DNA of 64,000 nucleotides from Cymodocea nodosa (taxonomy: Eukaryota > Streptophyta > Magnoliopsida > Alismatales > Cymodoceaceae), in contig CM072335.1 of NCBI GenBank assembly GCA_036874045.1, positions 10,560,001 through 10,624,000 on the forward strand. The letters run 5' to 3'. Under the pieces are notes generated by a model. It worked only from the letters and a program-made list of their open reading frames with translations, did no database searches and was not told the origin of the DNA. Made by a program: the position numbers and the translations under genes. Positions 1 through 64,000 of this stretch are shown here, in pieces; within the stretch, counting starts at the first letter, position 1; each line of letters starts with the position of its first letter.

Positions 1-160
1 CTGTTGTGTCGTGATGTTTTTTTAAAAGGGTTGTATTCTTTGAAAATGAGTTAAAATAATTGGATCTTCATTGACAAACCTTAAATAATCTAATTCAACA
101 ACTTTCTAGTGTCAATTATCAGAGTTTTCGATCTTTCTATAATGATGAATTTCATATTGT
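1..160 (+). repeat. Partial spacer of the first unit
   Basis: The window opens in mid-spacer, about 350 bp downstream of an unseen 5S copy. It continues through the AACAACTTTCTAGTGTC block to the first 5S start. Nothing else is present. Confidence 0.9.
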
Positions 161-280
161 GTGTGCGACCATACCAACATAAAAGCACTGGATCTCATCA
201 GAACTCCAAAGTTAAATGTGTTTGGGCAAGAGTAGTACTAAGATGGGTGACCTCTTGGGAAGTCCTTGTGTTGCACTCTT
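161..280 (+). pseudogene. 5S-like copy 1, type A
   Basis: Full length. Carries CAACATAAAAG and GGGCAAGAG, the latter altering the intermediate element; CTATAATG lies upstream. Confidence 0.9.
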
Positions 281-613
281 TTTTGCATCATGATACGATG
301 GTCCTTTTGTAAATCAAACACACACTAAGAGACGACCCTATTATTAATAATGGTTTCCAAAATTAATGTCAAATATTGAATGACATCATGATCAAAATGT
401 GCCATTATAACGTTGGTTGATATCGAAAGAGTCGTATTCTCTTACTAAAATTTTTTAACTTCTTAACTTCCAACAATTAGGGTACCAGGAGATGAGAAAC
501 GTTTAATATATGTTGTATCGTGATGTTTTTTTAAAAGGGTTGTATTCTTTGTAAATGAGTTGAAATAATTGGATCTTCATTGACAAACCTGAAATAATCT
601 AATTCAATATTGT

Positions 614-733
614 GTTTGTGACCATACCGACACAAAAACACTGGATCTCATTAGAACTCCAAAGTTAAATGTGTTCAGGCGAGAGTAGTACTAAGATGGG
701 TGACCTCTGGGGAAGTTCTTGTGTCGCACTCTT
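614..733 (+). pseudogene. 5S-like copy 2, type D, short unit
   Basis: GTTCAGGCGAG and TGTCGCACTC. The 55 bp normally before the gene are missing, so AATCTAATTCAA joins directly to TATTGTG and the whole usual promoter region is lost. Confidence 0.9.
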
Positions 734-1066
734 TTTTGCATCATGGTAGGATGGTCTTTTGGTAAATCAAACACACACTAAGAGACGACCCTATTATTAA
801 TAATGGTTTCCAAAATTAATGTCAAATATTGAATGACATCATGATCAAAATGTGCCATTATAACGTTGGTTGATATCGAAAGAGTCGTATTCTCTTACTA
901 AAATTTTGTAACTTCTTAACTTCCAATAATTAGGGTACTAGGAAATGAGAAACGTTTAATATCCGTTGTGTCGTGATGTTTTTTTAAAAGAGTTGTATTC
1001 TTTGAAAATGAGTTGAAATAATTGGATCTTCATTGACAAACCTGAAATAATCTAATTCAATATTGT

Positions 1067-1186
1067 GTTTGTGACCATACCGACACAAAAACACTGGATC
1101 TCATTAGAACTCCAAAGTTAAATGTGTTCAGGCGAGAGTAGTACTAAGATGGGTGACCTCTGGGGAAGTTCTTGTGTCGCACTCTT
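1067..1186 (+). pseudogene. 5S-like copy 3, type D, short unit
   Basis: Same 5S sequence and same upstream 55-bp loss as copy 2, spaced 453 bp from it, so the short unit was itself duplicated. Confidence 0.9.
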
Positions 1187-1575
1187 TTTTGCATCATGGT
1201 AGGATGGTCTTTTGGTAAATCAAACACACACTAAGAGACGACCCTAGTGTTGATAATGGTTTCCAAAATTAATGTCAAATATTAAATGACATCATGATCA
1301 AAATGTGCCATTATAACGTTGGTTGATATCGAAAGTGTTGTATTCTCTTACTAAAATTTTGTAACTTCTTAAATTCCAATAATTAGGGTACTAGGAAATG
1401 AGAAACGTTTAATATCCGTTGTGTCGTGATGTTTTTTTAAAAGAGTTGTATTCTTTGAAAATGAGTTGAAATAATTGGATCTTCATTGACAAACCTGAAA
1501 TAATCTAATTCAACAAGTTTCTAGTGTCATTTATCATAGTTTTCGATCTTTCTGTAATGATGAATTTCATATTGT

Positions 1576-1695
1576 GTGTGCGACAATACCAACACAAAAG
1601 CACTAGATCTCATCCAAACTCCAAAGTTAAATGTGTTTGGGAGAGAGTAGTATTAAGATGGGTGACCTCTTGGGAAGTCCTTGTGTTGCACTCTT
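1576..1695 (+). pseudogene. 5S-like copy 4, type B
   Basis: CACTAGATC, GGGAGAGAG and GTATTAAG. The GGGAGAGAG change hits the intermediate element. Confidence 0.9.
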
Positions 1696-2082
1696 TTTTA
1701 CATCATGGTAGGATGGTCTTTTTGTAAATCAAACACACTAAGAGACGACCCTACTATAGATAATGGTTTCCAAAATTAATGTCAAATATTGAATGACATC
1801 ATGATCAAAATGTGCCATTATAACGTTGGTTGATATCGAACGAGTCGTATTCTCTTACTAAAATTTTGTAACTTCTTAACCTACAACAATTAGGATACTA
1901 GGAAATGAGAAACGTTTAATATCTGTTGTGTCGTGATGTTTTTTTAAAAGGGTTGTATTCTTTGAAAATTAGTTGAAATAATTGGATCTTCATTGACAAA
2001 ACTTAAATAATGTAATTCAACAACTTTCTAGTGTCAATTATCATAGTTTTCGATCTTTCTGTAATGATGAATTTCATGTAGT

Positions 2083-2202
2083 GTGTGTGACCATACCAAC
2101 ACAAAAGCACTGGATCTCATCAGAACTCCAAAGTTAAATGTGTTTGGGCGAGAGTAGTACTAAGATGGGTGACCTCTTGGGAAGTCCTTGTGTTGCACTC
2201 TT
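2083..2202 (+). pseudogene. 5S-like copy 5, type A
   Basis: GTGTGTGACC at the start (a CpG lost to TpG) with otherwise typical type A sequence; CATGTA upstream. Confidence 0.9.
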
Positions 2203-2591
2203 TTTTGCATCATGATAGGATGGTCTTTTTGTAAATCAAACACACACTAAGAGACGACCCTATTATTGATAATGGTTTCCAAAATTAATGTCAAATATTG
2301 AATGACATCATGATCAAAATATGCCATTATAACGTTGGTTGATATCGAAAGAGTCGTATTCTCTTACTAAAATTTTGTAACTTCTTAACTTACAACAATT
2401 AGGGTACCAGGAAATGAGAAACGTTTAATATCTGTTGTGTCGTGATGTTTTTTTAAAACGGTTGTATTCTTTGAAAATGAGTAGAAATAATTGGATCTTC
2501 ATTGACAAAGCTTAAATAATCTAATTCAACCACTTTCTAGTGTCAATTATCATAGTTTTCGATCTTTCTGTAATGATGAATTTCATGTTGT

Positions 2592-2711
2592 GTGTGCGAC
2601 CATACCAACACAAAAGCACTGGATCTCATCAAAACTCCAAAGTTAAATGTGTTTGGGCGAGAGTAGTACTAAGATGGGTGACCTCTTGGGAAGTCCTTGT
2701 GTTGCACTCTT
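2592..2711 (+). pseudogene. 5S-like copy 6, type A
   Basis: CATCAAAACTCC in the middle; followed by GGATCATGAT. Confidence 0.9.
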
Positions 2712-4116: not shown

Positions 4117-4236
4117 GTGTGCGACCATACCAACACAAAAGCACTGGATCTCATCAGAACTCCAAAGTTAAATGTGTTTGGGCGAGAGTAGTACTAAGGT
4201 GGGTGACCTCTTGGGAAGTCCTTGTGTTGCACTCTT
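4117..4236 (+). pseudogene. 5S-like copy 9, type A
   Basis: CTAAGGTGGGTGACC; its spacer carries AATATTTGTTGTG, shared with 41.6 kb. Confidence 0.9.
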
Positions 4237-4625
4237 TTTTGGATCATGATAGGATGGTCTTTTTGTAAATCAAACACACACTAAGAGACGACCCTATTAT
4301 TGATAATGGTTTCCAAAATTAATGTCAAATATTGAATGACATCATGATCAAAATATGCCATTATAACGTTGGTTGATATCGAAAGAGTCGTATTCTCTTA
4401 CTAAAATTTTGTAACTTCTTAACTTACAACAATTAGGGTACCAGGAAATGAGAAACGTTTAATATTTGTTGTGTCGTGATGTTTTTTTAAAACGGTTGTA
4501 TTCTTTGAAAATGAGTAGAAATAATTGGATCTTCATTGACAAACCTTAAATAATCTAATTCAACCGCTTTCTAGTGTCAATTATCATAGTTTTCGATCTT
4601 TCTGTAATGATGAATTTCATGTTGT

Positions 4626-4745
4626 GTGTGCGACCATACCAACACAAAAGCACTGGATCTCATCAGAACTCCAAAGTTAAATGTGTTTGGGCGAGAGTAG
4701 TACTAAGATGGGTGACCTCTTGGGAAGTCCTTATGTTGCACTCTT
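4626..4745 (+). pseudogene. 5S-like copy 10, type A
   Basis: Typical apart from CCTTATGTTGC; spacer has lost two bases in CACTAAGACGACC. Confidence 0.9.
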
Positions 4746-5132
4746 TTTTGCATCATGATAGGATGGTCTTTTTGTAAATCAAAAACACACTAAGACGACC
4801 CTATTATTGATAATGGTTTCCAAAATTAATGTCAAATATTGAATGACATCATGATCAAAATGTGCCATTATAACGTTGGTTGATATCGAAAGAGTCGTAT
4901 TCTCTTACTAAATTTTTTTAACTTCTTAACTTCCAACAATTAGGGTACCAGGAGATGAGAAACGTTTAATATATGTTGTATCGTGATGTTTTTTTAAAAG
5001 GGTTGTATTCTTTGAAAATGAGTTGAAATAATTGGATCTTCATTGACAAACCTTAAATAATCTAATTCAACAACTTTCTAGTGTCAATTATCATAGTTTT
5101 CGATCTTTCTGTAATGATGAATTTCATGTTGT

Positions 5133-5252
5133 GTGTGCGACCATACCAACACAAAAGCACTGGATTTCATCAGAACTCCAAAGTTAAAGGTGTTTGGGTG
5201 AGAGTAGTACTAAGATGGGTGAACTCTTGGGAAGTCCTTGTGTTGCAATATT
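5133..5252 (+). pseudogene. 5S-like copy 11, type A variant
   Basis: GGATTTCATC, AAAGGTGTTTGGGTGAG, GTGAACTC and GCAATATT; the 3' end no longer pairs well with the 5' end. Confidence 0.9.
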
Positions 5253-5640
5253 TTTTGCATCATGATAGGATGGTCTTTTTGTAAATCAAACACACTCTAA
5301 GAGACGACCCTATTATTGATAATGGTTTCCAAAATTAATGTCAAATATTGAATGACATCATGATCAAAATGTGCCATTATAACGTTGGTTCATATCGAAA
5401 GAGTCGTATTCTCTTACTAAAATTTTTTAACTTCTTAACTTCCAACAATTAGGGTACCAGGAAATGAGAAACGTTTAATGTATGTTGTGTCGTGATGTTT
5501 TTTAAAAGGGTTGTATTCTTTGAAAATGAGTTGAAATAATTGGATCTTCATTGACAAACCTTAAATAATCTAATTCAACAACTTTCTAGTGTCAATTATC
5601 ATACTTTTCGATCTTTCTGTAATGATGAATTCAATATTAT

Positions 5641-5760
5641 GTGTGCGACCATACCGACAGAAAAGCACTCGATCTCATTAGAACTCCAAAGTTAAATGTG
5701 TTTGGGCGAGAGTAGTACTAAGATGGCTGACCTCTTGGGAAGTCCTTGTGTTGCACTCTT
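5641..5760 (+). pseudogene. 5S-like copy 12, type E
   Basis: CCGACAGAAAAGCACTCG and GATGGCTGACC. Confidence 0.9.
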
Positions 5761-6150
5761 TTTTGCATCATGGTAGGATGGTCTTTTTTGTAAATCAAAA
5801 ACACACTTAGATACGACCCTATTGTTGATAATGGTTTTCAAAATTAATGTCAAATATTAAATGACATCATGATCAAAATGTGCCATTAAAACGTTGGTTG
5901 ATATTGAAAGTGTCGTATTCTCTTACTAAAATTTTGTAACTTCTTAAATTCCAATAATTAGGGTACTAGGAAATGAGAAACGTTTAATATCCGTTGTGTC
6001 GTGATGTTTTTTTAAAAGAGTTGTATTCTTTGAAAATGAGTTGAAATAATTGGATCTTCATTGACAAACTTGAAATAATCTAATTCAACAAGTTTCTAGT
6101 GTCATTTATCATAGTTTTCGATCGTTCTGTAATGATGAATTTCATATTGT

Positions 6151-6270
6151 GTGTGCGACAATACCAACACAAAAGCACTAGATCTCATCCAAACTCCAAA
6201 GTTAAATGTGTTTGGGCGAGAGTAGTATTAAGATGGGTGACCTGTTGGGAAGTCCTTGTGTTGCACTCTT
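6151..6270 (+). pseudogene. 5S-like copy 13, type B
   Basis: Intermediate element GCGAGA intact, unlike copies 4 and 8; GACCTGTTGGG; GATCGTTCTG upstream. Confidence 0.9.
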
Positions 6271-6657
6271 TTTTACATCATGGTAGGATGGTCTTTTTGT
6301 AAATCAAACACACTAAGAGACGACCCAATTATAGATAATGGTTTCCAAAATTAATGTCAAATATTGAATGACATCATGATCAAAATGTGCCATTATAACG
6401 TTGGTTGATATCGAACGAGTCGTATTCTCTTACTAAAATTTTGTAACTTCTTAACTTACAACAATTAGGGTACCAGGAAATGAGAAACGTTTAATATCTG
6501 TTGTGTCGTGATGTTTTTTTAAAAGGGTTGTATTCTTTGAAAATTAGTTGAAATAATTGGATCTTCATTGACAAACCTTAAATAATATAATTCAACAACT
6601 TTCTAGTGTCAATTATCATACTTTTCGATCTTTCTGTAATGATGAATTTCATGTAGT

Positions 6658-6777
6658 GTGTGCGACCATACCAACACAAAAGCACTGGATCTCATCAGAC
6701 CTCCAAAGTTAAATGTGTTTGGGCGAGAGTATTACTAAGATGGGTGACCTCTTGGGAAGACCTTGTGTTGCACTCTT
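6658..6777 (+). pseudogene. 5S-like copy 14, type A
   Basis: CAGACCTCC, GAGTATTACTAAG and GGGAAGACC. Confidence 0.9.
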
Positions 6778-7166
6778 TTTTGCATCATGATAGGATGGTC
6801 TTTTTGTAAGTCAAACACACACTAAGAGATGACCCTATTATTGATAATGGTTTCCAAAATTAATGTCAAATATTGAATGACATCATGATCAAAATATGCC
6901 ATTATAACGTTGGTTGATATCGAAAGAGTCGTATTCTCTTACTAAAATTTTGTAACTTCTTAACTTACAACAATTAGGGTACCAGGAAATGAGAAACGTT
7001 TAATATCTGTTGTGTCGTGATGTTTTTTTAAAACGGTTGTATTCTTTGAAAATGAGTAGAAATAATTGGATCTTCATTGACAAACCTTAAATAATCTAAT
7101 TCAACAACTTTCTAGTGTCAATTATCATACTTTTCGATCTTTTTGTAATGATGAATTTAATATTGT

Positions 7167-7286
7167 GTGTGCGACCATACCGATACAAAAACGCTGGATC
7201 TCATTAGAACTCCAAAGTTAAATGTGTTTGGGCGAGAGTAGTACTAAGATGGCTGACCTCATGGGAAGTCCTTGTGTTGCACTCTT
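7167..7286 (+). pseudogene. 5S-like copy 15, type C
   Basis: CCGATACAAAAACGCTGG and GACCTCATGGG. Confidence 0.9.
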
Positions 7287-7673
7287 TTTTGCATCATGGT
7301 AGGATGGTCTTTTTGTAAATCAAAAACACACTAAGACGACCCTATTATTGATAATGGTTTCCAAAATTAATGTCAAATATTGAATGACATCATGATCAAA
7401 ATGTGCCATTATAACGTTGGTTGATATTGAAAGAGTCGTATTCTCTTACTAAATTTTTTTAACTTCTTAACTTCCAACAATTAGGGTACCAGGAGATGAG
7501 AAACGTTTAATATATGTTGTATCGTGATGTTTTTTTAAAAGGGTTGTATTCTTTGAAAATGAGTTGAAATAATTGGATCTTCATTGACAAACCTTAAATA
7601 ATCTAATTCAACAACTTTCTAGTGTCAATTATCATAGTTTTCGATCTTTCTGTAATGATGAATTTCATGTTGT

Positions 7674-7793
7674 GTGTGCGACCATACCAACACAAAAGCA
7701 CTGGATCTCATCAGAACTCCAAAGTTAAAGGTGTTTGGGTGAGAGTAGTACTAAGATGGGTGAACTCTTGGGAAGTCCTTGTGTTGCAATATT
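7674..7793 (+). pseudogene. 5S-like copy 16, type A variant
   Basis: Like copy 11 (GTGAACTC, GCAATATT) but keeps GGATCTCATC. Confidence 0.9.
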
Positions 7794-8181
7794 TTTTGCA
7801 TCATGATAGGATGGTCTTTTTGTAAATCAAACACACTCTAAGAGACGACCCTATTATTGATAATGGTTTCCAAAATTAATGTCAAATATTGAATGACATC
7901 ATGGTCAAAATGTGCCATTATAACGTTGGTTCATATTGAAAGAGTCGTATTCTCTTACTAAAATTTTTTAACTTCTTAACTTCCAACAATTAGGGTACCA
8001 GGAAATGAGAAACGTTTAATGTATGTTGTGTCGTGATGTTTTTTAAAAGGGTTGTATTCTTTGAAAATGAGTTGAAATAATTGGATCTTCATTGACAAAC
8101 CTTAAATAATCTAATTCAACAACTTTCTAGTGTCAATTATCATACTTTTCGATCTTTCTGTAATGATGAATTCAATATTAT

Positions 8182-8301
8182 GTGTGCGACCATACCGACA
8201 GAAAAGCACTCGATCTCATTAGAACTCCAAAGTTAAATGTGTTTGGGCGAGAGTAGTACTAAGATGGCTGACCTCTTGGGAAGTCCTTGTGTTGCACTCT
8301 T
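8182..8301 (+). pseudogene. 5S-like copy 17, type E
   Basis: Same as copy 12, 2541 bp downstream. Confidence 0.9.
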
Positions 8302-8691
8302 TTTTGCATCATGGTAGGATGGTCTTTTTTGTAAATCAAACACACACTAAGATACAACCCTATTGTTGATAATGGTTTTCAAAATTAATGTCAAATATTA
8401 AATGACATCATGATCAAAATGTGCCATTAAAACGTTGGTTGATATTGAAAGTGTCGTATTCTCTTACTAAAATTTTGTAACTTCTTAAATTCCAATAATT
8501 AGGGTACTAGGAAATGAGAAACGTTTAATATCCGTTGTGTCGTGATGTTTTTTTAAAAGAGTTGTATTCTTTGAAAATGAGTTGAAATAATTGGATCTTC
8601 ATTGACAAACCTGAAATAATCTAATTCAACAAGTTTCTAGTGTCATTTATCATAGTTTTCGATCGTTCTGTAATGATGAATTTCATATTGT

Positions 8692-8811
8692 GTGTGCGAC
8701 AATACCAACACAAAAGCACTAGATCTCATCCAAACTCCAAAGTTAAATGTGTTTGGGCGAGAGTAGTATTAAGATGGGTGACCTCTTGGGAAGTCCTTGT
8801 GTTGCACTCTT
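8692..8811 (+). pseudogene. 5S-like copy 18, type B
   Basis: Like copy 13 but with the usual GACCTCTTGGG. Confidence 0.9.
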
Positions 8812-9198
8812 TTTTACATCATGGTAGGATGGTCTTTTTGTAAATCAAACACACTAAGAGACGACCCAATTATAGATAATGGTTTCCAAAATTAATGTCA
8901 AATATTGAACGACATCATGATCAAAATGTGCCATTATAACGTTGGTTGATATCGAACGAGTCGTATTCTCTTACTAAAATTTTGTAACTTCTTAACTTAC
9001 AACAATTAGGGTACCAGGAAATGAGAAACGTTTAATATCTGTTGTGTCGTGATGTTTTTTTAAAAGGGTTGTATTCTTTGAAAATTAGTTGAAATAATTG
9101 GATCTTCATTGACAAACCTTAAATAATCTAATTCAACAACTTTCTAGTGTCAATTATCATAGTTTTCGGTCTTTCTGTAATGATGAATTTCATGTTGT

Positions 9199-9318
9199 GT
9201 GTGCGACCATACCAACACAAAAGCACTGGATCTCATCAGAACTCCAAAGTTAAATGTGTTTGGGCGAGAGTAGTACTAAGATGGGTGACCTCTTGGGAAG
9301 TCCTTGTGTTGCACTCTT
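9199..9318 (+). pseudogene. 5S-like copy 19, type A
   Basis: Typical type A; TTTTCGGTC upstream is private. Confidence 0.9.
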
Positions 9319-9707
9319 TTTTGCATCATGATAGGATGGTCTTTTTGTAAATCAAACACACACTAAGAGACGACCCTATTATTGATAATGGTTTCCAAAA
9401 TTAATGTCAAATATTGAATGACATCATGATCAAAATATGCCAATATAACGTTGGTTGATATCGAAAGAGTCGTATTCTCTTACTAAAATTTTGTAACTTC
9501 TTAACTTACAACAATTAGGGTACCAGGAATTGAGAAACGTTTAATATCTGTTGTGTCGTGATGTTTTTTTAAAACGGTTGTATTCTTTGAAAATGAGTAG
9601 AAATAATTGGATCTTCATTGACAAACCTTAAATAATCTAATTCAACAACTTTCTAGTGTCAATTATCATACTTTTCGATCTTTTTGTAATGATGAATTTA
9701 ATATTGT

Positions 9708-27000: not shown

Positions 27001-27120
27001 GTGTTCGACCATACCGATACAAAAACGCTGGATCTCATTAGAACTCCAAAGTTAAATGTGTTTGGGCAAGAGTAGTACTAAGATGGCTGACCTCTTGGGA
27101 AGTCCTTGTGTTGCACTCTT
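27001..27120 (+). pseudogene. 5S-like copy 54, type C
   Basis: First member of the third block. Confidence 0.9.
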
Positions 27121-42372: not shown

Positions 42373-42760
42373 TTTTGCATCATGATAGGATGGTCTTTTT
42401 GTAAATCAAACACACTCTAAGAGACGACCCTATTATTGATAATGGTTTCCAAAATTAATGTCAAATATTGAATGACATCATGATCAAAATGTGCCATTAT
42501 AACGTTGGTTCATATCGAAAGAGTCGTATTCTCTTACTAAAATTTTTTAACTTCTTAACTTCCAACAATTAGGGTACCAGGAAATGAGAAACGTTTAATG
42601 TATGTTGTGTCGTGATGTTTTTTAAAAGGGTTGTATTCTTTGAAAATGGGTTGAAATAATTGGATCTTCATTGACAAACCTTAAATAATCTAATTCAACA
42701 ACTTTCTAGTGTCAATTATCATACTTTTCGATCTTTCTGTAATGATGAATTCAATATTAT

Positions 42761-42880
42761 GTGTGCGACCATACCGACAGAAAAGCACTCGATCTCATTA
42801 GAACTCCAAAGTTAAATGTGTTTGGGCGAGAGTAGTACTAAGATGGCTGACCTCTTGGGAAGTCCTTGTGTTGCACTCTT
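42761..42880 (+). pseudogene. 5S-like copy 85, type E
   Basis: Looks identical to copy 12. Confidence 0.9.
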
Positions 42881-43270
42881 TTTTGCATCATGGTAGGATG
42901 GTCTTTTTTGTAAATCAAAAACACACTTAGATACGACCCTATTGTTGATAATGGTTTTCAAAATTAATGTCAAATATTAAATGACATCATGATCAAAATG
43001 TGCCATTAAAACGTTGGTTGATATTGAAAGTGTCGTATTCTCTTACTAAAATTTTGTAACTTCTTAAATTCCAATAATTAGGGTACTAGGAAATGAGAAA
43101 CGTTTAATATCCGTTGTGTCGTGATGTTTTTTTAAAAGAGTTGTATTCTTTGAAAATGAGTTGAAATAATTGGATCTTCATTGACAAACCTGAAATAATC
43201 TAATTCAACAAGTTTCTAGTGTCATTTATCATAGTTTTCGATCGTTCTGTAATGATGAATTTCATATTGT

Positions 43271-43390
43271 GTGTGCGACAATACCAACACAAAAGCACTA
43301 GATCTCATCCAAACTCCAAAGTTAAATGTGTTTGGGCGAGAGTAGTATTAAGATGGGTGACCTCTTGGGAAGTCCTTGTGTTGCACTCTT
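43271..43390 (+). pseudogene. 5S-like copy 86, type B
   Basis: Counterpart of copy 13, with the GACCTCTTGGG of copy 18. Confidence 0.9.
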
Positions 43391-43774
43391 TTTTACATCA
43401 TGGTAGGATGGTCTTTTTGTAAATCAAACACACTAAGAGACGACCCAATTATAGATAATGGTTTCCAAAATTAATGTCAAATATTGAATGACATCATGAT
43501 CAAAATGTGCCATTATAACGTTGGTTGATATCGAACGAGTCGTATTCTCTTACTAAAATTTTGTAACTTCTTAACTTACAACAATTAGGGTACCAGGAAA
43601 TGAGAAACGTTTAATATCTGTTGTGTCGTGATGTTTTTTTAAAAGGGTTGTATTCTTTGAAAATTAGTTGAAATAATTGGATCTTCATTGACAAACCTTA
43701 AATAATATAATTCAACTTTCTAGTGTCAATTATCATACTTTTCGATCTTTCTGTAATGATGAATTTCATGTAGT

Positions 43775-43894
43775 GTGTGCGACCATACCAACACAAAAGC
43801 ACTGGATCTCATCAGAACTCCAAAGTTAAATGTGTTTGGGCGGGAGTGTTACTAAGATGGGTGACCTCTTGGGAAGTCCTTGTGTTGCACTCTT
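43775..43894 (+). pseudogene. 5S-like copy 87, type A
   Basis: GGGCGGGAGTGTTAC; the upstream spacer has lost 3 bp (ATTCAACTTTC). Confidence 0.9.
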
Positions 43895-44283
43895 TTTTGC
43901 ATCATGATAGGATGGTCTTTTTGTAAGTCAAACACACACTAAGAGATGACCCTATTATTGATAATGGTTTCCAAAATTAATGTCAAATATTGAATGACAT
44001 CATGATCAAAATATGCCATTATAACGTTGGTTGATATCGAAAGAGTCGTATTCTCTTACTAAAATTTTGTAACTTCTTAACTTACAACAATTAGGGTACC
44101 AGGAAATGAGAAACGTTTAATATCTGTTGTGTCGTGATGTTTTTTTAAAACGGTTGTATTCTTTGAAAATGAGTAGAAATAATTGGATTTTCATTGACAA
44201 ACCTTAAATAATCTAATTCAACAACTTTCTAGTGTCAATTATCATACTTTTCGATCTTTTTGTAATGATGAATTTAATATTGT

Positions 44284-44403
44284 GTGTGCGACCATACCGA
44301 TACAAAAACGCTGGATCTCATTAGAACTCCAAAGTTAAATGTGTTTGGGCGAGAGTAGTACTAAGATGGCTGACCTCATGGGAAGTCCTTGTGTTGCACT
44401 CTT
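44284..44403 (+). pseudogene. 5S-like copy 88, type C
   Basis: Counterpart of copy 15 (GACCTCATGGG). Confidence 0.9.
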
Positions 44404-44790
44404 TTTTGCATCATGGTAGGATGGTCTTTTTGTAAATCAAAAACACACTAAGACGACCCTATTATTGATAATGGTTTCCAAAATTAATGTCAAATATTGA
44501 ATGACATCATGATCAAAATGTGCCATTATAACGTTGGTTGATATTGAAAGAGTCGTATTCTCTTACTAAATTTTTTTAACTTCTTAACTTCCAACAATTA
44601 GGGTACCAGGAGATGAGAAACGTTTAATATATGTTGTATCGTGATGTTTTTTTAAAAGGGTTGTATTCTTTGAAAATGAGTTGAAATAATTGGATCTTCA
44701 TTGACAAACCTTAAATAATCTAATTCAACAACTTTCTAGTGTCAATTATCATAGTTTTCGATCTTTCTGTAATGATGAATTTCATGTAGT

Positions 44791-53439: not shown

Positions 53440-53559
53440 GTGTGCGACCATACCAACACAAAAGCACTGGATCTCATCAGGACTCCAAAGTTAAATGTGT
53501 TTGGGTGAGAGTAGTACTAAGATGGGTGACCTCTTGGGAGGTCCTTGTGTTGCACTCCT
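53440..53559 (+). pseudogene. 5S-like copy 106, diverged
   Basis: CATCAGGACTCC, GGGTGAGAG and GGGAGGTCC. Confidence 0.88.
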
Positions 53560-53947
53560 TTTTGCATCATGGTAGGATGGTCTTTTGTAAATCAAACACA
53601 CACTAAGAGACGACCCTATTACTGATAATGGTTTCCAAAATTAATGTCAAATATTGAATGACATAATGATCAAAATGTTCTATTATAACGGTGGTTGATA
53701 TCGAAAAGTTTGTATTCTATTACTAAAATTTTGTAACATCTTAACTTACAACAATTAGAGTACGAGGAAATGAGAAACGTTTAATATCCGTTGTGTCGTG
53801 ATGTTATTTTAAGAGAGTTGTAATCATTGCAAATGAGTTGAAATAATTGAATCTTCATTTACAAACTTTAAATAATCTAATTCAACAACATTCTAGTGTG
53901 AATTATCAATGTTTTCGATCTTTATGTAATGATAAATTTAGAAATGT

Positions 53948-54067
53948 GTGTGCGACCACACCAACACAAAAGCATTGGATCTCTCCAGAACTCTAAAGTT
54001 AAATGTGTTTGGGCGAGTGTAGTACTAGGATGGGTGACCTCTTGGAAAGTCCTTGTGTTGCACTCCT
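53948..54067 (+). pseudogene. 5S-like copy 107, diverged, ancestral G81
   Basis: ACTAGGATGGGTGACC keeps the canonical plant base where almost all other copies have ACTAAGATG; also ACCACACC and CTCTCCAG. Confidence 0.88.
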
Positions 54068-54456
54068 TTTTGCATCAGGCTAGGATGGTCTTTTTGTAAA
54101 TCAAACACACATTAAGAGACGACCCTATTATTGATAATGGTTTCCAAAATTAATGTCAAATATTGAATGACATCATGATCAATATGTGCCATTATGACGT
54201 TGGTTGATATCGAAAGGGTCGTATTCTCTTACTAAAATTTTGTAACTTCTTAACTTCCAACAATTAGGGTACCAGGAAATGAGAAACGTTTAATATCCAT
54301 TGTGTCGTGATGTTTTTCTAAAATAGTTGTATTCTTTGAAAATGAGTTGAAATAATTGGATCTTCATTGACAAACCTTAAATAATCTAATTCAAGAAGTT
54401 TCTAGTGTCAATTATCAAAGTTTTCGATCTTTCTATAATGTTGAATTCAATATTTT

Positions 54457-54576
54457 TTGTGCGACCATACCAACACAAAAGTACTGGATCTCATCAGAAC
54501 TCCAAAGTTAAATGTGTTTGGGCGAGAGTAGTATTAAGAAGGGTGAGCTCTTGGGAAGTCCTTGTGTTGCACTCTT
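54457..54576 (+). pseudogene. 5S-like copy 108, diverged
   Basis: AAGTACTGG and GTATTAAGAAGGGTGAGC; CTATAATG upstream. Confidence 0.88.
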
Positions 54577-54965
54577 TTTTGCATCATGGTAGGATGGTCT
54601 TTTTGTAAATCAAACACACACTAAGAGATGACCCTATTATTGATAATGGTTTCCAAAATTAATGTCATATATTGAATGACATCATGATCAAAATGTGCCA
54701 TTATTACGTTGGTTGATATCGAAAGGGTCGTATTCTCTTACTAAAATTTTGTAACTTCTTAACTTCCATCAATTAGGGTACCAGGAAATGAGAAACGTTT
54801 AATATCCGTTTTGTCGTGATGTTATTTTAAGAGAGTTGTAATCGTTGCAAATGAGTTGAAATAATTGTATCTTCATTGACAAACCTTAAATAATCTAATT
54901 CAACAAGTTTCTAGTGTCAATTATCATAGTTTTCGATCTTTCTGTAATGATGAATTTAATATTGC

Positions 54966-55085
54966 GAGTGTGACCATACCAACACAAAAGCATTGGATCT
55001 CATTAGAACTCCAAAGATAAATGTGTTTGGGCGAGAGTAGTACTAAGATGGGTGACCTCTTGGGAAGTCATTGTGTTGCACTCGT
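54966..55085 (+). pseudogene. 5S-like copy 109, diverged
   Basis: GAGTGTGACC start, CCAAAGATAAATG and AAGTCATTG. Confidence 0.88.
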
Positions 55086-55474
55086 TTTTGCATCATGGTA
55101 GGATGGTCTTTTTGTAAATGAAACACACACTAATAGACAACCCTATTATTGATAATGGTTTCCAAAATTAATGTCAAATATTGAATGACATCATGATCAA
55201 AATGAGCCATTATAACGTTGGTTGATATCGAAAGGGTCTTATTCTCTTACTAAAATTTTGTAAATTCTTAATTTCCAATAATTAAGGTACCATGAAATGC
55301 GAAACGTTTAATATCCGTTGTGTCGTGATGTTTTTTTAAAAGAGTTGTAATCTTTGAAAATGAGTTGAAATAATGGGATCTTCATTGACATACCTTAAAT
55401 AATCTAATTCAACAAGTTTCAAGTGTCAATTCTCATAGTTTTCGATCTTTCTATAATGATGAATTCAATATTAT

Positions 55475-55594
55475 GTGTGCGACCATACCAACAAAAAAAC
55501 ACTATATCTCATTAGAACTCCAAGGTTAAATGTTTTTGGTCGAGAGTAGTATTAAGATGGGTGACCTCTTGGGAAGTCTTTGAGGTGCACTCGT
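55475..55594 (+). pseudogene. 5S-like copy 110, diverged, 3' part duplicated
   Basis: CACTATATC, AAGGTTAAATG, GGTCGAGAG and TTGAGGTGC. Its last 30 or so bases recur 82 bp downstream as part of a tandem duplication. Confidence 0.88.
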
Positions 55595-55726
55595 TTTTCC
55601 ATCATGGTAGGGAGGCCTTTTAGTAAATCAAACACTCACTAAGAGACCTCTTGGGAAGTCTTTGAGGTGCACTCGTTTTTGCATCATGGTAGGGAGGCCT
55701 TTTAGTAAATCAAACACTCACTAAGA
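55563..55726 (+). repeat. 82-bp tandem duplication across a 5S 3' end
   Basis: GACCTCTTGGGAAG through AACACTCACTAAGA occurs twice, at 55563 and 55645. The two copies differ at one base (TTTTTCCATC against TTTTTGCATC). The join sits at a shared GAC, in GTGACCTC and AGAGACGACC. Confidence 0.85.
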
Positions 55727-56065
55727 GACGACCCTGTTATTGATAATGGTTTCCAAAATTAATGTCATATATTGAATGACATAATGATCAAAATGTTCCA
55801 TTATAACGGTGGTTGATATCGAAAGGGTTGTATTCTATTACTAAAATTTTGTAACAACTTAACCTACAACAATTAGAGTACTAGGAAATGAGAAACGTTT
55901 AATATCCGTTGTGTCGTGATGTTATTTTCAGAGAGTTGTAATCGTTGCAAATGAGTTGAAATAATTGGATCTTCATTTACAAACTTTAAATAATCTAATT
56001 CAACAACTTTCTAGTGTGAATTATCAATGTTTTTGATCTTTCTATAATGATAAATTTAAAAATGT

Positions 56066-56185
56066 TTTTGCGACCATACCAACACAAAAGCATTGGATCT
56101 CATCAGAACTCCAAAGTTAAATGTGCTTGGCCGAGAGTAGTACTAAGATGGGTGACCTCTTGGGAAGTCCTTGTGTTGCACTCTT
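56066..56185 (+). pseudogene. 5S-like copy 111, diverged, ancestral C61
   Basis: ATGTGCTTGGCCGAG keeps the canonical C at position 61, lost elsewhere, but has GGCCGAG. Confidence 0.88.
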
Positions 56186-56574
56186 TTTTGCATCATGGTA
56201 GGATGATCTTTTTGTAAATCAAGCACACAGTAAGAGACGACCCTATTATTGACAATGGTTTCCAAAATTAATGTCATATATTGAACGACACAATGATCAA
56301 AATGTTCCATTATAAAGGTGGTTGATATCGAAAGGGCTGTATTCTATTACTAAAATTTTGTAACATCTTAACTTACAACAATTAGAGTACTAGGAAATGA
56401 GAAACGTTTGATATCCGTTGCGTCGTGATGTTATTTTAAGAGGGTTGTAATCATTGCAAATGAGTTGAAATAATTGGATCTTCATTTACAAACTTCAAAT
56501 AATCTAATTCAACAACTTTCTAGTGTGAATAATCAATGTTTTCGATCTTTCTATAATGATAAATTTCAAAATGT

Positions 56575-56694
56575 GTGTGCGACCATACCAACACAAAAGC
56601 ACTGGATCTCATCAGAACTTCAAAGTTAAAGGTGTTTGGGTGAGAGTAGCACTAAGATGGGTGACCTCTTGGGAAGTCCTTGTGTTGCACTCTT
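56575..56694 (+). pseudogene. 5S-like copy 112, diverged
   Basis: GAACTTCAAAG, AAAGGTG, GGGTGAGAG and GTAGCACTAAG. Confidence 0.88.
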
Positions 56695-57083
56695 TTTTGC
56701 ATCATGGTAGGATGGTCTTTTTTTAAATCAAACACACACTAAGAGACGACCGTATTATTGATAACGGTTTCCAAAATTAATGTCAAATATTAAATGACAT
56801 CATGATCAAAATGTGCCATTATAACGTTGGTTGATATCGAAAGGGTCGTATTCTCTTACTAAAATTTTGTAACTTCTTAACTTCCAACAATTAGGGTACT
56901 AGGAAATGAGAAACGTTTAATATCCGTTGTGTCGTGATGTTTTTTTAAAAGAGTTGTATTCTTTGAAAATGAGTTGAAATAATTGGATCTTCATTGACAA
57001 ACCTTAAATAATCTAATTCAACAAGTTTCTAGTGTCAATTATCATAGTTTTCGATCTTTCTATAATGATGAATTCAATATTAT

Positions 57084-57202
57084 ATGTGCGACCATATCAA
57101 CACAAAAGCACTGGATCTTAGCAGAACTCTAAAGTTAAACGTGTTTGGCGAGAGTAGTACTAAGATGGGTGACTTCTTGGGAAGTCTTTGCGTTGCGCAT
57201 CT
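57084..57202 (+). pseudogene. 5S-like copy 113, diverged, one base short
   Basis: GGATCTTAGCAG, AAACGTGTTTGGCGAG (keeps the CpG at position 57, loses one G) and GCGTTGCGCATC. Confidence 0.88.
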
Positions 57203-57591
57203 TTATGCATCATGGTAGGATGGTCTTTTTGTAAATCAAACACACACTAAGAGACGACCCTATTATTCACAATGGTTTCCAAAATTAATGTCATATATTG
57301 AATGACATAATGATCAAAATGTTCCATTATAATGGTGGTTGATATCGAAACAGTTGTATTCTATTACTAAAATTTTGTAACATCTTAACTTACAACAATT
57401 AGAGTAATAGGAAATGAGAAACGTTTAATATCCGTTGTGTCGTGATGTTATTTTAAGAGAGTTGTAATCATTGCAATTGAGTTGAAATAATTGGATCTTC
57501 ATTTACAAACTTTAAATAATCTAATTCAACAACTTTCTAGTGTGAATAATCAATGTTTTCGATCTTTCTGTTATGATAAATTTCGAAATGT

Positions 57592-57711
57592 GTGTGGGAC
57601 CATACCAACACAAAGGCACTGGATCTCGTCAGAACTCCAAAGTTAAAGGTGTTTGGGCGAGAGTAGTACTAAGATGGGTCACCTCTTGGGAAGTCCTTGT
57701 GTTGCACTCTT
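57592..57711 (+). pseudogene. 5S-like copy 114, diverged
   Basis: GTGTGGGACC start, CTCGTCAG and GATGGGTCACC. Confidence 0.88.
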
Positions 57712-58100
57712 TTTTGCATCATGTTAGGATGGTCTTTTTGTGAATCAAACATACACTAAGAGACGACCCTATTATTGATAACGGTTTCCAAAATTAATGT
57801 CATATATTGAATGACATAATCTTCAAAATGTTCCATTATAACGGTGGTTGATATCGAAAGGTTTGTATTCTATTACTAAAATTTTGTAACATCTTAACTT
57901 ACAAAAATTAGAGTACCAGGAAATGAGAAACGTTTAATATCCAATGTGTCGTGATGTTATTTTAAGAGAGTTGTAATCATTGCAAATGAGTTGAAATAAT
58001 TGAATCTTCATTTACAAACTTTAAATAATCTAATTCAACAACTTTCTAGTGTGAATTATCAATGTTTTCGATCTTTCTGTAATGATAAATTTAAAAATGT

Positions 58101-58220
58101 GTGTGGGACCAAACCAACCCAAAAGCATTGGATCTCACTAGAACTCCAAAGTTAAATGTGTTTGGGCGAGAGTAGTACTAAGATGGGTGACCTCTTGAGA
58201 AGTCCTTGCGTTGCACATCT
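58101..58220 (+). pseudogene. 5S-like copy 115, diverged
   Basis: GTGTGGGACCAAACC, CTCACTAG and TTGCGTTGCACATC. Confidence 0.88.
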
Positions 58221-58609
58221 TTATGCATCATGGTAGGATGGTCTTTTTGTAAATCAAACACACACTAAGAGACGACCCTATTATTCACAATGGTTTCCAA
58301 AATTAATGTCAAATATTGAATGACATCATGATCAAAATGTGCCATTATAACGTTGGTTGATATCGAAAGGGTCGTATTCTCTTACTAAAATTTTGTAACT
58401 TCTTAACTTCCATCAATTAGGGTACTAGGAAATGAGAAACGCTTAATATCCGTTGTGTCGTGATGTTTTTTTAAAAGAGTTGTATTCTTTGAAAATGAGT
58501 TGAAATAATTGGATCTTCAATGACAAACCTTAAATAATCAAATTCAACATGTTTCTAGTGTCAATTATCATAGTTTTCGTTCTTTCTGTAATGATGAATT
58601 TAATATTGA

Positions 58610-58729
58610 GTGTGGGACCATACCAACACAAAAGCACTAGATCTCATCTGAACTCCAAAGTTAATTGTGTTTTGGGGAGAGTAGTACTAAGACGGGTGAC
58701 CTCTTGGGAAGTCCTTGTGTTGCATTTCT
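58610..58729 (+). pseudogene. 5S-like copy 116, diverged
   Basis: CATCTGAACTCC, GTTAATTGTGTTTTGGGG and TTGCATTTC. Confidence 0.88.
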
Positions 58730-59118
58730 TTTTGCATCATGGTAGGATGGTCTTTTTGTAAATCAAACACACACTAAGAGACGACCCTATTATTGACAAT
58801 GGTTTCCAAAATTAATGTCAAATATTGAATGACATCATGATCAAAATGTGCCCTTATAACGTTGGTTGATATCGAAAGGGTCGTATTCTCTTACTAAAAT
58901 TTTGTAACTTCTTAACTTCCATAAATTAGGGTACTAGGAAATGAGAAACGTTTAATATCCGTTGTGTCGTGATGTTTTTTTAAAAGAGTTGTAATCTTTG
59001 AAAATGAGTTGAAATAATTGGATCTTCAATGACAAACCTTAAATAATCTAATTTAACATGTTTCTTGTGTCAATTATCATAGTTTTCGATCTTTCTGTAA
59101 TGATGAATTTAATATCGA

Positions 59119-59238
59119 GTGTGGGACCATACCAACACAAAAGCACTAGATCTCATCTAAACTCCAAAGTTAAATGTGTTTGGGGGAGAGTAGTACTAAG
59201 ATGGGTGATCTCTTGGGAAGTCCTTGTGTTGCACTCAT
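59119..59238 (+). pseudogene. 5S-like copy 117, diverged
   Basis: CATCTAAACTCC, TTTGGGGGAGAG and GGGTGATCTC; sister of copy 116. Confidence 0.88.
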
Positions 59239-59626
59239 TTTTGCATCATGGTAGGGAGGCCTTTTTGTAAATCAAACGCTCACTAAGAGACGACTCTATT
59301 ATTGATAATGGTTTCCAAAATTAATGTCAAATATTGAATGACATCATGATCAAAATGTTCAATTATAATGGTGGTTGATATCGAAATGGTTGTATTCTAT
59401 TACTACAATTTTGAACAACTTAACTTACAACAATTAGAGTACCAGGAAATGAGAAACGTTTAATATCCGTTGTGTCGTGATGTTATTTTAAGAGAGTTGT
59501 AATCGTTGCAAATGAGTTGAAATAATTGTATCTTCATTGACAAACCTTAAATAATATAATTCAACAACTTTCTAGTGTGAATTATCAATGTTTTCGATCT
59601 TTCTGTAATGATAAATTTAAAAATGT

Positions 59627-59746
59627 GTGTGGGACCATACCAACACGAAGGCGTTGGATCTCACCAGAACTCCAAAGTTCAATGTGTTTGGGCGAGAGTA
59701 GTACTAAGATGGGTGACCTCTTGGAAAGTCCTTGTGTTGCACTCCT
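59627..59746 (+). pseudogene. 5S-like copy 118, diverged
   Basis: CACGAAGGCGTTGG, CTCACCAG, AAAGTTCAATG and CTTGGAAAG. Confidence 0.88.
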
Positions 59747-60135
59747 TTTTGCATCATGCTAGGATGGTCTTTTTGTAAATCAAACACACATTAAGAGACG
59801 ACCCTATTATTGATAATGGTTTCCAAATTTAATGTCAAATATTGAATGACATGATGATCAAAATGTGCCATTATAACGTTGGTTGATATCGAAAGGGTCG
59901 TATTCTCTTACTAAAATTTTGTTACTTCTTAACTTCCAACAATTAGGGTACGATGAAATGCGAAACGTTTAATATCCGTTGTGTCGTGATGTTTTTTTAA
60001 AAGAGTTGTAATCTTTGAAAATGAGTTGAAATAATTGGATCTTCATTGACAAACCTTAAATAATCTAATTCAACAAGTTTCTAGCGTTAATTATCATAGT
60101 TTTCGATCTTTCTGTAATGATGAATTTCATATTGT

Positions 60136-60255
60136 GTGTGCGACCATACTAACACAAAAGCACTGGATCTCATCAAAACTCCAAAGTTAAATGTGTTTGG
60201 GCGAGAGTAGTACTAAGATGGGTGACCTCTTGCGAAGTCCTTGTGTTGCACTCAT
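60136..60255 (+). pseudogene. 5S-like copy 119, type A
   Basis: Closest to type A in this zone; CATACTAACAC and CTTGCGAAG. Confidence 0.9.
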
Positions 60256-60644
60256 TTTTGCATCATGGTAGGATGGTCTTTTTGTAAATCAAACACACAC
60301 TAAGAGACAACCCTATTATTGATAATGGTTTCCAAAATTAATGTCAAATATTGAATGACATCATGATCAAAATGTGCCATTATAACGGTGGTTGATATCG
60401 AAAAGTTTGTATTCTATTACTAAAATTTTGTAACATCTTAACCTACAACAATTAGAGTACCAGGAAATGAGAAATGTTTAATATCCGTTGTGTCGTGATG
60501 TTATTTTAAGAGAGTTGTAATCATTGCAAATGAGTTGAAATAATTGAATCTTCATTTACAAACTTTAAATAATCTAATTCAACAAGTTTATAGTGTGAAT
60601 TATCAAAAATTTTGATCTTTCTGTAATGACAAATTTAGAAATGT

Positions 60645-60764
60645 GTGTGCGACCATACCAACACAAAAACATTGGATCTCATTAGGACTCCAAAGTAAAA
60701 TGTGTTTGGGCGAGAGTAGTACTAAGATGGGTGACCTCTTTGGAAGTTCTTGTGTTGCACTCCT
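60645..60764 (+). pseudogene. 5S-like copy 120, diverged
   Basis: CATTAGGACTCC, AAAGTAAAATG and CTCTTTGGAAG. Confidence 0.88.
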
Positions 60765-61153
60765 TTTTGCATCATGGTAGGATGGTGTTTTTGTAAATCA
60801 AGCACACACTAAGAGACGACCCTATTATTGATAATGGTTTCGAAAATTAATGTCAAATATTGAATGACATCATGATCAAAATGTGCCATTCTAACGTTGG
60901 TTGATATCGAAAGAGTCGTATTCTCTTACTAAAATTTTGTAACTTCTTAACTTCCAACAATTAAGGTACCATGAAATGCGAAACGTTTAATATCCGTTGG
61001 GTCGTGATGTTTTTTTAAAAGAGATGTAATCTTTGAAAATGAGTTGAAATAATGGGATCTTCATTGACATACCTTAAATAATCTAATTCAACAAGTTTCT
61101 AGTGTCAACTCTCATAGTTTTTGATCTTTCTGTAATGATGAATTTAATATTAT

Positions 61154-61249
61154 GTGTGCGACCATACCAACACAAAAACACTAGATCTCATTAGAACTCC
61201 AAAGTTAAATGTGTTCGGTCGAGAGTAGTATTAAGATGGGTGACCTTTT
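61154..61249 (+). pseudogene. 5S-like copy 121, 3' end deleted
   Basis: Intact to about position 94 (GATGGGTGACC), then joined to TTTTACAAACTTTAAATAATC from the spacer before the next copy. The 3' end, terminator and most of the spacer are gone; about 325 bp are missing. Confidence 0.9.
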
Positions 61250-61336
61250 ACAAACTTTAAATAATCTAATTCAACAACTTTTTAGTGTGAATTATCATAG
61301 TTTTCTATCTTTCTGTAATGATGAATTTAATAATTT

Positions 61337-61456
61337 GTGTTCAACCATACCAACACAAAAGTACTGGATCTCATCAGAACTTTAAAGTTAAATGTGTTTA
61401 GGCAAGAGTAGTACTAGGATGGGTGACCTGTTGGGAAGTCTTTGTGTTGCACTCCT
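61337..61456 (+). pseudogene. 5S-like copy 122, diverged, ancestral G81
   Basis: GTGTTCAACC start, GTTTAGGCAAGAG, ACTAGGATGGGTGACC and CTGTTGGG. Confidence 0.88.
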
Positions 61457-61845
61457 TTCTGCATCATGATAGGACGGTATTTTTCTAAATCAAATACACA
61501 CTAAGAGACAACCCTATTATTGATAATGGTTTCCAAAATTAATGTTATATATTGAATGACATCATGATCAAAATGTTCCATTATAACATTGGTTGATATC
61601 GAAAGGGTCATATTCTCTAGCTAAAATTTTGTAACTTCTTAACTTCCAACAATTAGGGTACCATGAAATGCGAAACATTTAATATCCGTTGTGTCGTGAC
61701 ATTTTTTTAAAAGAGTTGTAATCTTTGAAAATGAGTTGAAATAATTGGATCTTCATTGACAAACCTTAAATAATCTAATTTAACAAGTTTCTATTGTCAA
61801 TTATCATAGTTTTCGATCCTTATGTAATGACAAATTTAGAAATAT

Positions 61846-61965
61846 GTGTGCGACCATACCAACACAAAAGCTCTCGATTTCATCAGAACTTCGAAGTTAA
61901 ATGTGTTTAGGCGAGAATAGTACTAAGATGGGTGACCTCTTGGGAAGTCCTTGTGTCGCACTCCT
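61846..61965 (+). pseudogene. 5S-like copy 123, diverged, ancestral G48
   Basis: GAACTTCGAAGTTAAATG keeps the CpG at position 48 lost elsewhere; also CTCTCGATTTC and GAGAATAG. Confidence 0.88.
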
Positions 61966-62354
61966 TTTTGCATCATGGTAGGATGGTCTTTTTGTAAATC
62001 AAACACTCACTAAGAGACGACCCTATTATTGATAATGGTTTCCAAAATTAATGTCAAATATTGAATGACATCATGATCAAAATGTTCTATTATAACGTTG
62101 GTTGATATCGAAAGGGTCGTATTCTCTTACTAAAATTTTATAACTTCTTAACTTCCAACAATTAGGGTACCATGAAATGCGAAACGTTTTATATCCGTTG
62201 TGTCGTGATGTTTTTTTAAAAGGGTTGTAATCTTTGAAAATGAGTTGAAATAATTGGATCTTCATTGACAAACCTTAAATAATCTAATTTAACAAGTTTC
62301 TATTGTCAATTATCATAGTTTTAGATCTTTTTGTTACGACAAATTTAGAAATAT

Positions 62355-62474
62355 GTGTGCGACCATACCAACGCAAAAGCATTGGATTTCATCAGAACAT
62401 CAAAGTTAAATGTGTTTGGGCGAGAGTAGTACTAAGGTGGGTGACCTCTTGGGAAGTCCTTGTGTTGCACTCCT
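62355..62474 (+). pseudogene. 5S-like copy 124, diverged
   Basis: CAACGCAAAAGCATTGG, GAACATCAAAG and AAGGTGGGTGACC. Confidence 0.88.
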
Positions 62475-62863
62475 TTTTGCATCATGGTAGGACGTTATTT
62501 TTGTAAATCAAATACACACTAATAGACGACCTTATTATTGATAATGGTTTCCAAAATTAATGTCATATATTGAATGACATCATGATCAAAATGTTCCATT
62601 ATAACGTTGGTTGATATCGAAAGGGTCGTATTCTCTTACTAAAATTTTGTAACTTCTTCACTTCCAACAATTAGGGTACCATGAAATGCGAAACGTTTAA
62701 TATCCGTTGTGTCGTGATGTTTTTTTAAAAGAGTTGTAATCTTTTAAAATGAGTTGAAATAATTGGATCTTCATTGACAAACCTTAAATAATCTAATTCA
62801 ACAAGTTTCTAGTGTCAATTATCATAGTTTTCAATCTTTCCATAATGACAAATTTAGAAATGT

Positions 62864-62983
62864 GTGTGCGACCATTCCAACATTAAAGTATTGGATCTCA
62901 TCAGAATTCCAAAGTTAAATGTGTTTGGGCGAGAGTAGCACGAAGATGGGTGACCTCTTGGGAAGTCTTTGTGTCGCACTACT
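62864..62983 (+). pseudogene. 5S-like copy 125, diverged
   Basis: CATTCCAACATTAAAG, GAATTCCAAAG and GTAGCACGAAG. Confidence 0.88.
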
Positions 62984-63277
62984 TTTTGCATCATCGTAGG
63001 GAGGTCTTTCGGTAAATCAAACACTCACTAAGAGACGACCCTATTACTAACAATGGTTTCCAAAATTAATTTCAAATATTGAATGACATCATGATTAAAA
63101 TGAGAAACGTTTAATATCCGTTGTATCGTGATGTTATTTTAAGAGAGTTGTAATCATTGCAAATGAGTTGAAATAATTGAATCTTCATTTACAAACTTTA
63201 AATAATCTAATTCAACAACTTTCTAGTGTGAATTATCAATGTTTTCCATCTTTCTGTAATGATAAATTTCGAAATGT

Positions 63278-63338
63278 GTGTGTGACCATACGAACACAAA
63301 AGCACTGGATGTCATCAAAACTCCAAAGTTAAATGTGT
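63278..63338 (+). pseudogene. 5S-like copy 126, 3' half deleted
   Basis: Only about the first 61 bases remain (to GTTAAATGTGTT). They join to ATTAATTTTTTTGATC from the upstream spacer of the next copy; about 400 bp are missing. Confidence 0.9.
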
Positions 63339-63382
63339 TATTAATTTTTTTGATCTTTATGTAATGATAAATTTAGAAATGT

Positions 63383-63502
63383 GTGTGCGACCGTACCAAC
63401 ACCAAAGCACTAGATTTCATCAAAACTTCAAAGTTAAATGTGTTTGTGCGAGAGTAGTACTAAGATGGGTGACCTCTTGGGAAGTCCTTGTGTTGCACTC
63501 CT
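63383..63502 (+). pseudogene. 5S-like copy 127, diverged
   Basis: CGACCGTACCAACACCAAAG, GATTTCATC and TTTGTGCGAGAG; only 105 bp from copy 126. Confidence 0.88.
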
Positions 63503-63891
63503 TTTTGCATCATGGTAGGACGGTATTTTTGTAAATCAAATACACACTACGAGACGACCCTATTATTGATAATGGTTTCCAAAATTAATGTCAAATATTG
63601 AATGACATCATGTTCAAAAGGTTCCATTATAACGGTGGTTGATATCGAAAGGGTTGTATTCTATTACTAAAATTTTGTAACATCTTAACTTACAACAATT
63701 AGAGTACCAGGAAATGAGAAACGTTTAATATCCGTTGTGTCGTGATGTTATTTTGAGAGAGTTGTAATCATTGGAAATGAGTTGAATTAATTGGATCTTC
63801 ATTGACAAACCTTAAATAATCTAATTCAACAAGTTTCTAGTGTCAATTACCGTAGTTTTCGATCTTTCTGTAATGATGAATTTAAGTTTGT

Positions 63892-64000
63892 GTGTGTGAC
63901 CATACCAACACAAAAGCACTGGATCTAATCAAAACTCCAAAGTTAAATGTGTTTGGGCGAGAGTAGTACTAAGATGGGTGACCTCTTCGGAAGCCCTTGT
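63892..64000 (+). pseudogene. 5S-like copy 128, cut by the window end
   Basis: First 109 bases visible; GGATCTAATC, CTTCGGAAGCCC. It continues beyond the window. Confidence 0.9.

Follow-up and report, generated by a model that had tools for sequence, protein, structure and literature searches.

The window analysed here is the whole stretch of 64,000 bp of the Cymodocea nodosa genome taken from GenBank assembly GCA_036874045.1 (contig CM072335.1, positions 10,560,001 to 10,624,000 of the forward strand); all coordinates below count from its first nucleotide. It is filled completely (1–64000, plus strand) by a tandem array derived from plant 5S ribosomal DNA (rDNA), which is satellite-like and represents an already known kind of sequence. 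The consensus unit of 509 bp consists of a 119-bp gene part and a 390-bp spacer. A search with Rfam cmscan yielded 127 matches to the 5S rRNA family RF00001 at the gathering score, all on the plus strand and spanning the window, with scores from 67.4 to 108.9 bits; the last match is truncated by the window end. Using one gene as a blastn query, we obtained 129 gene starts including fragments, again all on the plus strand, three of them in partial tandem duplications near 55.5, 61.2 and 63.3 kb. The array is thereby confirmed and chance is not an issue. The first-pass annotation, made from the sequence alone, had described a 5S-derived array of 128 copies occupying at least 64 kb; both the array and, to within two, the copy number are correct. 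Neither the left nor the right end of the array is visible inside the window. The G+C content is flat along the window (32–33%), and there are no N bases. A protein-coding reading of the window was rejected, given that no open reading frames of at least 90 amino acids were found in it (translation table 11).

The spacing between gene starts equals exactly 509 bp in 77 of 128 cases and falls within 507–510 bp in 121. Two spacings are 453 bp, and four odd ones (82, 183, 414 and 105 bp, at 55–64 kb) correspond to partial duplications or a deletion. For the unit statistics, five short or cut units (55475, 61154, 62864, 63278 and 63892) were dropped from the 129, leaving 124. Unit 55557, misaligned by its own duplication, was also removed to form the set of 123 clean units and for the fold control; it is still included in the 124-unit results (consensus, haplotypes, conserved-site test and block duplications). 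The gene copy at 9199–9317 (plus strand, 108.7 bits in Rfam) is one of eight identical to the array consensus, and the spacer that follows it (9318–9707, plus strand) opens with the T-run terminator. The array has the full-length homology to 5S rRNA expected of a 5S rDNA-derived satellite (a 120-position match), as well as the head-to-tail amplification and homogenization (mean pairwise identity of 93.9% among the 123 clean units). The array also shares with a working cluster its regular unit, in which a gene of about 120 bp is followed by a terminator.

The gene part was compared with two references, both derived from published oligonucleotides for fluorescence in situ hybridization (FISH), neither of them being the host's own 5S. 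One is an angiosperm 5S consensus that we assembled from the oligonucleotides given in the available part of PMC5974128, with gaps filled. The other is the 5S probe set used on Citrus, which an excerpt of PMC13342924 terms universal. The array consensus differs from the angiosperm reference at 16 of 119 sites and from the probe set at 13 of 119, and the best identity to the angiosperm reference is 86.6%. The array and the probe set have the same base at sites 3, 56, 81 and 95, so these four are not specific to the array and need not be departures, or decay, of this locus. They may be common 5S variants and, the probes being termed universal, give no more than a weak hint at the host lineage. 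Fourteen of the 16 departure sites have the array base in 117 or more of the 123 clean units; the remaining two, sites 57 and 119, are less fixed (112 and 106 of 123, respectively). Hence the changes had arisen before the units in the window spread, as had been proposed. The related statement that all copies share the departures holds in that 14 sites are nearly fixed, and is weakened by the four of 16 that equal probe-set bases. C>T or G>A accounts for twelve of the 16 near-fixed changes, and the number of CpG dinucleotides in the gene falls from six in the reference to two in the array consensus.

The near-fixed changes respect the fold of the RNA. Among the 34 pairs of the Rfam 5S structure, 32 are standard pairs in the array consensus and 31 and 32 in the two references, whereas random placement of the same changes leaves only 26.8–27.7. 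The probability of retaining at least 32 pairs is 0.0013–0.0061 (two references and three deamination weightings of CG and CHG sites). When the energy-based structure of the probe-set gene was used and pairs 21–57 and 2–117 were omitted, it was 0.0002–0.0062. Two pairs passed from one Watson–Crick pair to another by double changes (29–48 from CG to TA and 17–61 from GC to AT), and the mismatch at 21–57 became a pair in the same manner (TC to AT). Pair 9–110 turned from wobble to Watson–Crick (TG to CG), 68–107 from Watson–Crick to wobble, and the end pair 2–117 is lost in the consensus. The folding energy is −35.0 for the consensus, −37.6 and −41.6 for the references, and −31.5 on average for single units; when set against shuffled sequences, these energies do not tell the consensus and the references apart (z-scores of −1.7, −1.0 and −2.2). 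We make no claim that the fixed changes spared the internal promoter, as its three boxes contain 5 changed sites of 39 vs 11 of 80 elsewhere (P = 1.0) with the angiosperm reference, and 2 of 39 vs 11 of 80 (P = 0.22) with the other one. Since the near-fixed changes keep 32 of 34 pairs, they point to constrained divergence before the loss of function. Random decay is not supported as the source of the 16 departures by this comparison of sequences, and the order of events suggested in the first-pass annotation, with the altered gene amplified after it had decayed, was not borne out.

Variation among the units follows a different pattern. Nucleotide diversity in the gene part exceeds that of the spacer both in the 123 clean units (0.0736 vs 0.0576) and in the 105 main units (0.0653 vs 0.0464). 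Considered by base over the 123 units, it is similar at C/G sites (0.107 in the gene vs 0.104 in the spacer, P = 0.27) and higher in the gene at A/T sites (0.045 vs 0.038, P = 0.01). In the gene, C>T/G>A changes are more frequent than any other class. In the 124 units, the number of C>T occurrences per CHH site is 3.53 in the gene and 3.58 in the spacer; the corresponding values are 7.75 vs 3.57 per CG site and 22.75 vs 12.67 per CHG site, these two contexts being represented by few sites. Neither conserved sites (0.090 vs 0.076 at others, P = 0.51) nor paired sites (0.081 vs 0.079) are spared by the segregating variants, which keep 2655 standard pairs in 89 distinct genes vs a random expectation of 2636. 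The internal boxes are as variable as the spacer or more so (0.069 vs 0.058), and 92 of 124 units have an A box without any difference from the consensus. Ninety gene haplotypes are present in 124 units, the commonest in eight, and there are 12 identical unit pairs among the 123 units. Thus the gene is no longer conserved over the spacer, as expected of a 5S satellite, and is not more conserved than the spacer, as it would be in a working cluster. With variability in the gene equal to or above that of the spacer, the array shows no present sign of selection on 5S function. Fixed changes respect the fold and segregating ones nearly ignore it, and so two phases can be distinguished within a single window. 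A diversity peak of about 0.10, compared to 0.04–0.08 elsewhere, lies at unit positions of approximately 440–509 and 1–30 (e.g., 9130–9228) and covers the 5'-end of the gene as well as the preceding 30 bp; the misaligned unit 55557 is included in this calculation.

In plant 5S genes, a TATA-like box is located at −28 and a C at −1. Here, position −1 is T in 125 of 129 starts and C in one, and TATA[AT] occurs within −35 to −15 in eight of 129, so that the combination of a TATA-like box and a C at −1 seen in a working cluster is mostly absent. The available part of PMC3409069 places the plant box at about −20. Downstream, a run of at least four T follows the gene in 124 of the 128 copies examined. 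Because the upstream elements are poor and the genes heterogeneous, the array at present most probably contributes no 5S RNA to ribosomes, to judge from its sequence. At the left of the window lie the two 453-bp units (161–1066, plus strand), identified from the spacings and by Tandem Repeats Finder (TRF) with a period of 453. The unit joins before 614 and 1067 are without about 56 bp directly upstream of the gene, which is the expected place of external promoter elements.

The array has several higher-order levels, and in this respect the earlier description was accurate. In the first 104 units, identity between units at lag 4 is 0.9595, which exceeds every value obtained when the unit order was permuted 2000 times (at most 0.9551); the identity of neighboring units lies slightly below the average (0.9469 vs 0.9495). 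The 4-unit repeat, with a period of 2034 bp, forms a block at 22364–33719 (plus strand) with 99.4% identity between successive copies and a run of 17 unit pairs at lag 4. No inverted repeats of at least 14 bp within 300 bp were found in 22900–33700, the sole part examined for hairpins in the 4-unit block. A 7-unit segment at 4117–7673 (plus strand) is duplicated at 41237–44790 (plus strand), 37 kb or 73 units away, with 99.5% identity by unit. A 4-unit segment starting at 5133 recurs five units further on, from 7674, with 99.0% identity (5133–9707, plus strand).

The right part of the array (53440–64000, plus strand) is diverged, its 18 clean units being 90.6% alike vs 94.9% in the 105 main units. 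The number of substitutions per unit relative to the consensus is 15.5–16.5 in each 8-kb bin before 48 kb, 18.5 at 48–56 kb and 34.7 after 56 kb. The canonical C at gene site 119 is retained in 11 of the 18 right-part units vs three of the 105 elsewhere. This pattern is the one expected where an array escapes homogenization near its edge, which suggests that the right part probably approaches the edge of the array, the edge itself being outside the view. The same region contains three partial tandem duplications detected by TRF on the plus strand, with periods of 82 (55563–55729), 183 (61074–61429) and 105 (63248–63444). It also holds one 95-bp deletion.

We propose a two-step history in which a 5S gene diverged under constraint and was then released and amplified as a satellite, and we assign to it a probability of roughly 55%. 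At the first step, a 5S gene that carried its own spacer would have diverged at 13–16 of 119 sites under the requirement that its RNA fold as 5S rRNA. The founder would therefore have been not a pseudogene but a 5S variant that was working, or nearly so, in its lineage. At the second step, the founder would have lost this constraint and then been amplified. The gene part now changes as fast as the spacer, with cytosine methylation as the putative cause of the C>T and G>A changes. Unequal exchange or conversion may keep blocks alike and build the 4-unit and larger higher-order repeats, and the right part of the window escapes homogenization and decays. What stands of the earlier interpretation is a 5S array that has turned satellite-like, in view of the gene diversity not below that of the spacer, the unprotected Rfam-conserved sites, the higher-order repeats and the poor upstream elements; what does not stand is the order of decay and amplification.

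Several observations weigh against the two-step history. The fold test uses 13–16 changes and references from FISH oligonucleotides and not the host's own 5S. Moreover, it was conceived after the double changes had been noticed, and its P-values are moderate evidence. The count of double changes taken alone gives P of 0.002–0.09, or 0.04–0.24 without pairs 21–57 and 2–117. In a set of 18 chosen units and the two references, two pairs had changes at both of their positions, and 131 of 500 shuffles attained this number as well. Avoidance of universally conserved sites is not significant, with two changes in 38 such sites vs 14 in 81 others for the angiosperm reference (P = 0.09) and one in 38 vs 12 in 81 for the other (P = 0.06); with only C/G sites considered, P is 0.26–0.32. 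At the same time, the T-run terminator is still present, as is much of the internal promoter, and the slight excess of pairs among segregating variants (naive z = 2.0, the units not being independent) may reflect a faint leftover constraint on the fold. Finally, if the host's normal 5S has the array bases, the first step is the ordinary 5S evolution of the lineage.

Five alternatives were considered. Under decay first, a pseudogenized 5S unit would have been amplified together with its mutations. The predominance of C>T/G>A and the loss of CpG are as in methylated unselected DNA, and both the broken end pair 2–117 and the change at site 35, which is conserved across life, would fit; however, this history predicts about 27 standard pairs instead of the observed 32, at the P-values given above for both structures, and we consider it unlikely. 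It is slightly more doubtful that the array is the host's working 5S cluster, or part of it, the 5S rRNA of the lineage having these bases. The full-length match, the terminators, the retained fold of the consensus and the four bases common to the published probe set agree with this explanation. Working plant 5S genes, however, are nearly uniform, so the high variability of the genes fits it poorly, as do an identity to the angiosperm reference of at best 86.6% and the general absence of the −1 C and TATA. A further explanation, which we regard as improbable, is that transcription of the array still yields a structured 5S-like RNA, non-ribosomal and selected for its fold, as has been considered for the frog satellite PcP190, which retains its 5S-like part and is transcribed according to the available part of PMC11675491. 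The fold kept by the fixed changes, the faint pair excess among the units and the intact A box in 92 of 124 of them would be explained. In contrast, the gene is not less diverse than the spacer, the internal boxes are no less variable, and the 5S-like part, slow in PcP190, is not slow in this array.

Cassandra terminal-repeat retrotransposons in miniature (TRIMs) carry 5S with a Pol III promoter and a terminator in their long terminal repeats (LTRs) and form tandem arrays, as stated in an excerpt of PMC7215508, so that an LTR–internal–LTR series could resemble a 5S cluster. The methionine-tRNA primer-binding site TGGTATCAGAGC is common to Cassandras in a survey of 81, according to the available part of PMC10853983. 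In the window this site has no matches with 0–2 mismatches and one with three mismatches, on the other strand, vs 31 expected by chance. As the primer-binding site is missing, a Cassandra array is excluded, and we leave it almost no credence. Slightly less far-fetched, and still very improbable, is that the unit order is an assembly artefact: long near-identical arrays are generally hard to assemble, but most units differ, so that long reads could place them, and the window contains no N.

Within the two-step history, a more specific possibility, tentative and rather unlikely on sequence grounds, is that the founder belonged to a second, divergent class of 5S RNA genes of this plant lineage whose fold was kept by compensatory changes and which was used, in ribosomes or elsewhere, before the satellite phase. 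In that case, the window would preserve a retired alternative 5S rRNA as a fossil, and working copies might persist elsewhere in the array or in relatives. More generally, the order of function loss and spread is rarely readable in known 5S-derived satellites, and the contrast between fixed and segregating changes with respect to the fold offers a straightforward test that can be applied to further satellites derived from rDNA. The case also warns against tallying long 5S-like arrays in plant assemblies as functional rRNA genes.

Plant 5S or array patterns gave no matches in viral and genome contig collections, nor did one array unit among plasmids or phages; these collections are not plant ones and the result says little. 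We found no mention of two spacer strings of the array in the literature, and, judged by titles and abstract openings, none of the papers found on 5S-derived satellites names this satellite.

Known systems, compared here as described in the available parts of the respective papers, share some of its features. The B-chromosome satellite PLsatB of Plantago lagopus (Kumke et al. 2016; PMC6410184) is also a tandemly amplified plant satellite with similarity to 5S rDNA, but its 325-bp monomer consists of 5S fragments, whereas the array has a whole 509-bp unit of gene and spacer. PcP190 (PMC11675491) is likewise a satellite that descends from 5S and contains an entire 5S-like region of 120 bp; its unit is about 190 bp long, and its 5S-like part evolves much slower than the rest, whereas here this part is no less variable than the spacer. 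The centromeric satellite of Hoplias malabaricus (PMC5437419) is another case of a 5S gene turned into an independent satellite. There, the 5S-like part has a much lower folding energy than working genes do (about 28 vs 50 kcal/mol), whereas the consensus of the present array remains near the references, with single units somewhat weaker. Ordinary plant S-type 5S rDNA, such as the array of about 63 kb in Brassica rapa (PMC7215508), agrees with the array in unit length, layout, orientation, terminator and concerted evolution; unlike it, the array has a gene not conserved over the spacer, poor upstream elements and marked higher-order repeats. Tandem Cassandra arrays (PMC7215508) have a regularly spaced 5S domain in tandem as well, and the array differs from them in lacking the Cassandra primer-binding site. 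Two features are unusual here: the whole unit of gene and spacer is kept, and the fixed changes contrast with the segregating ones.

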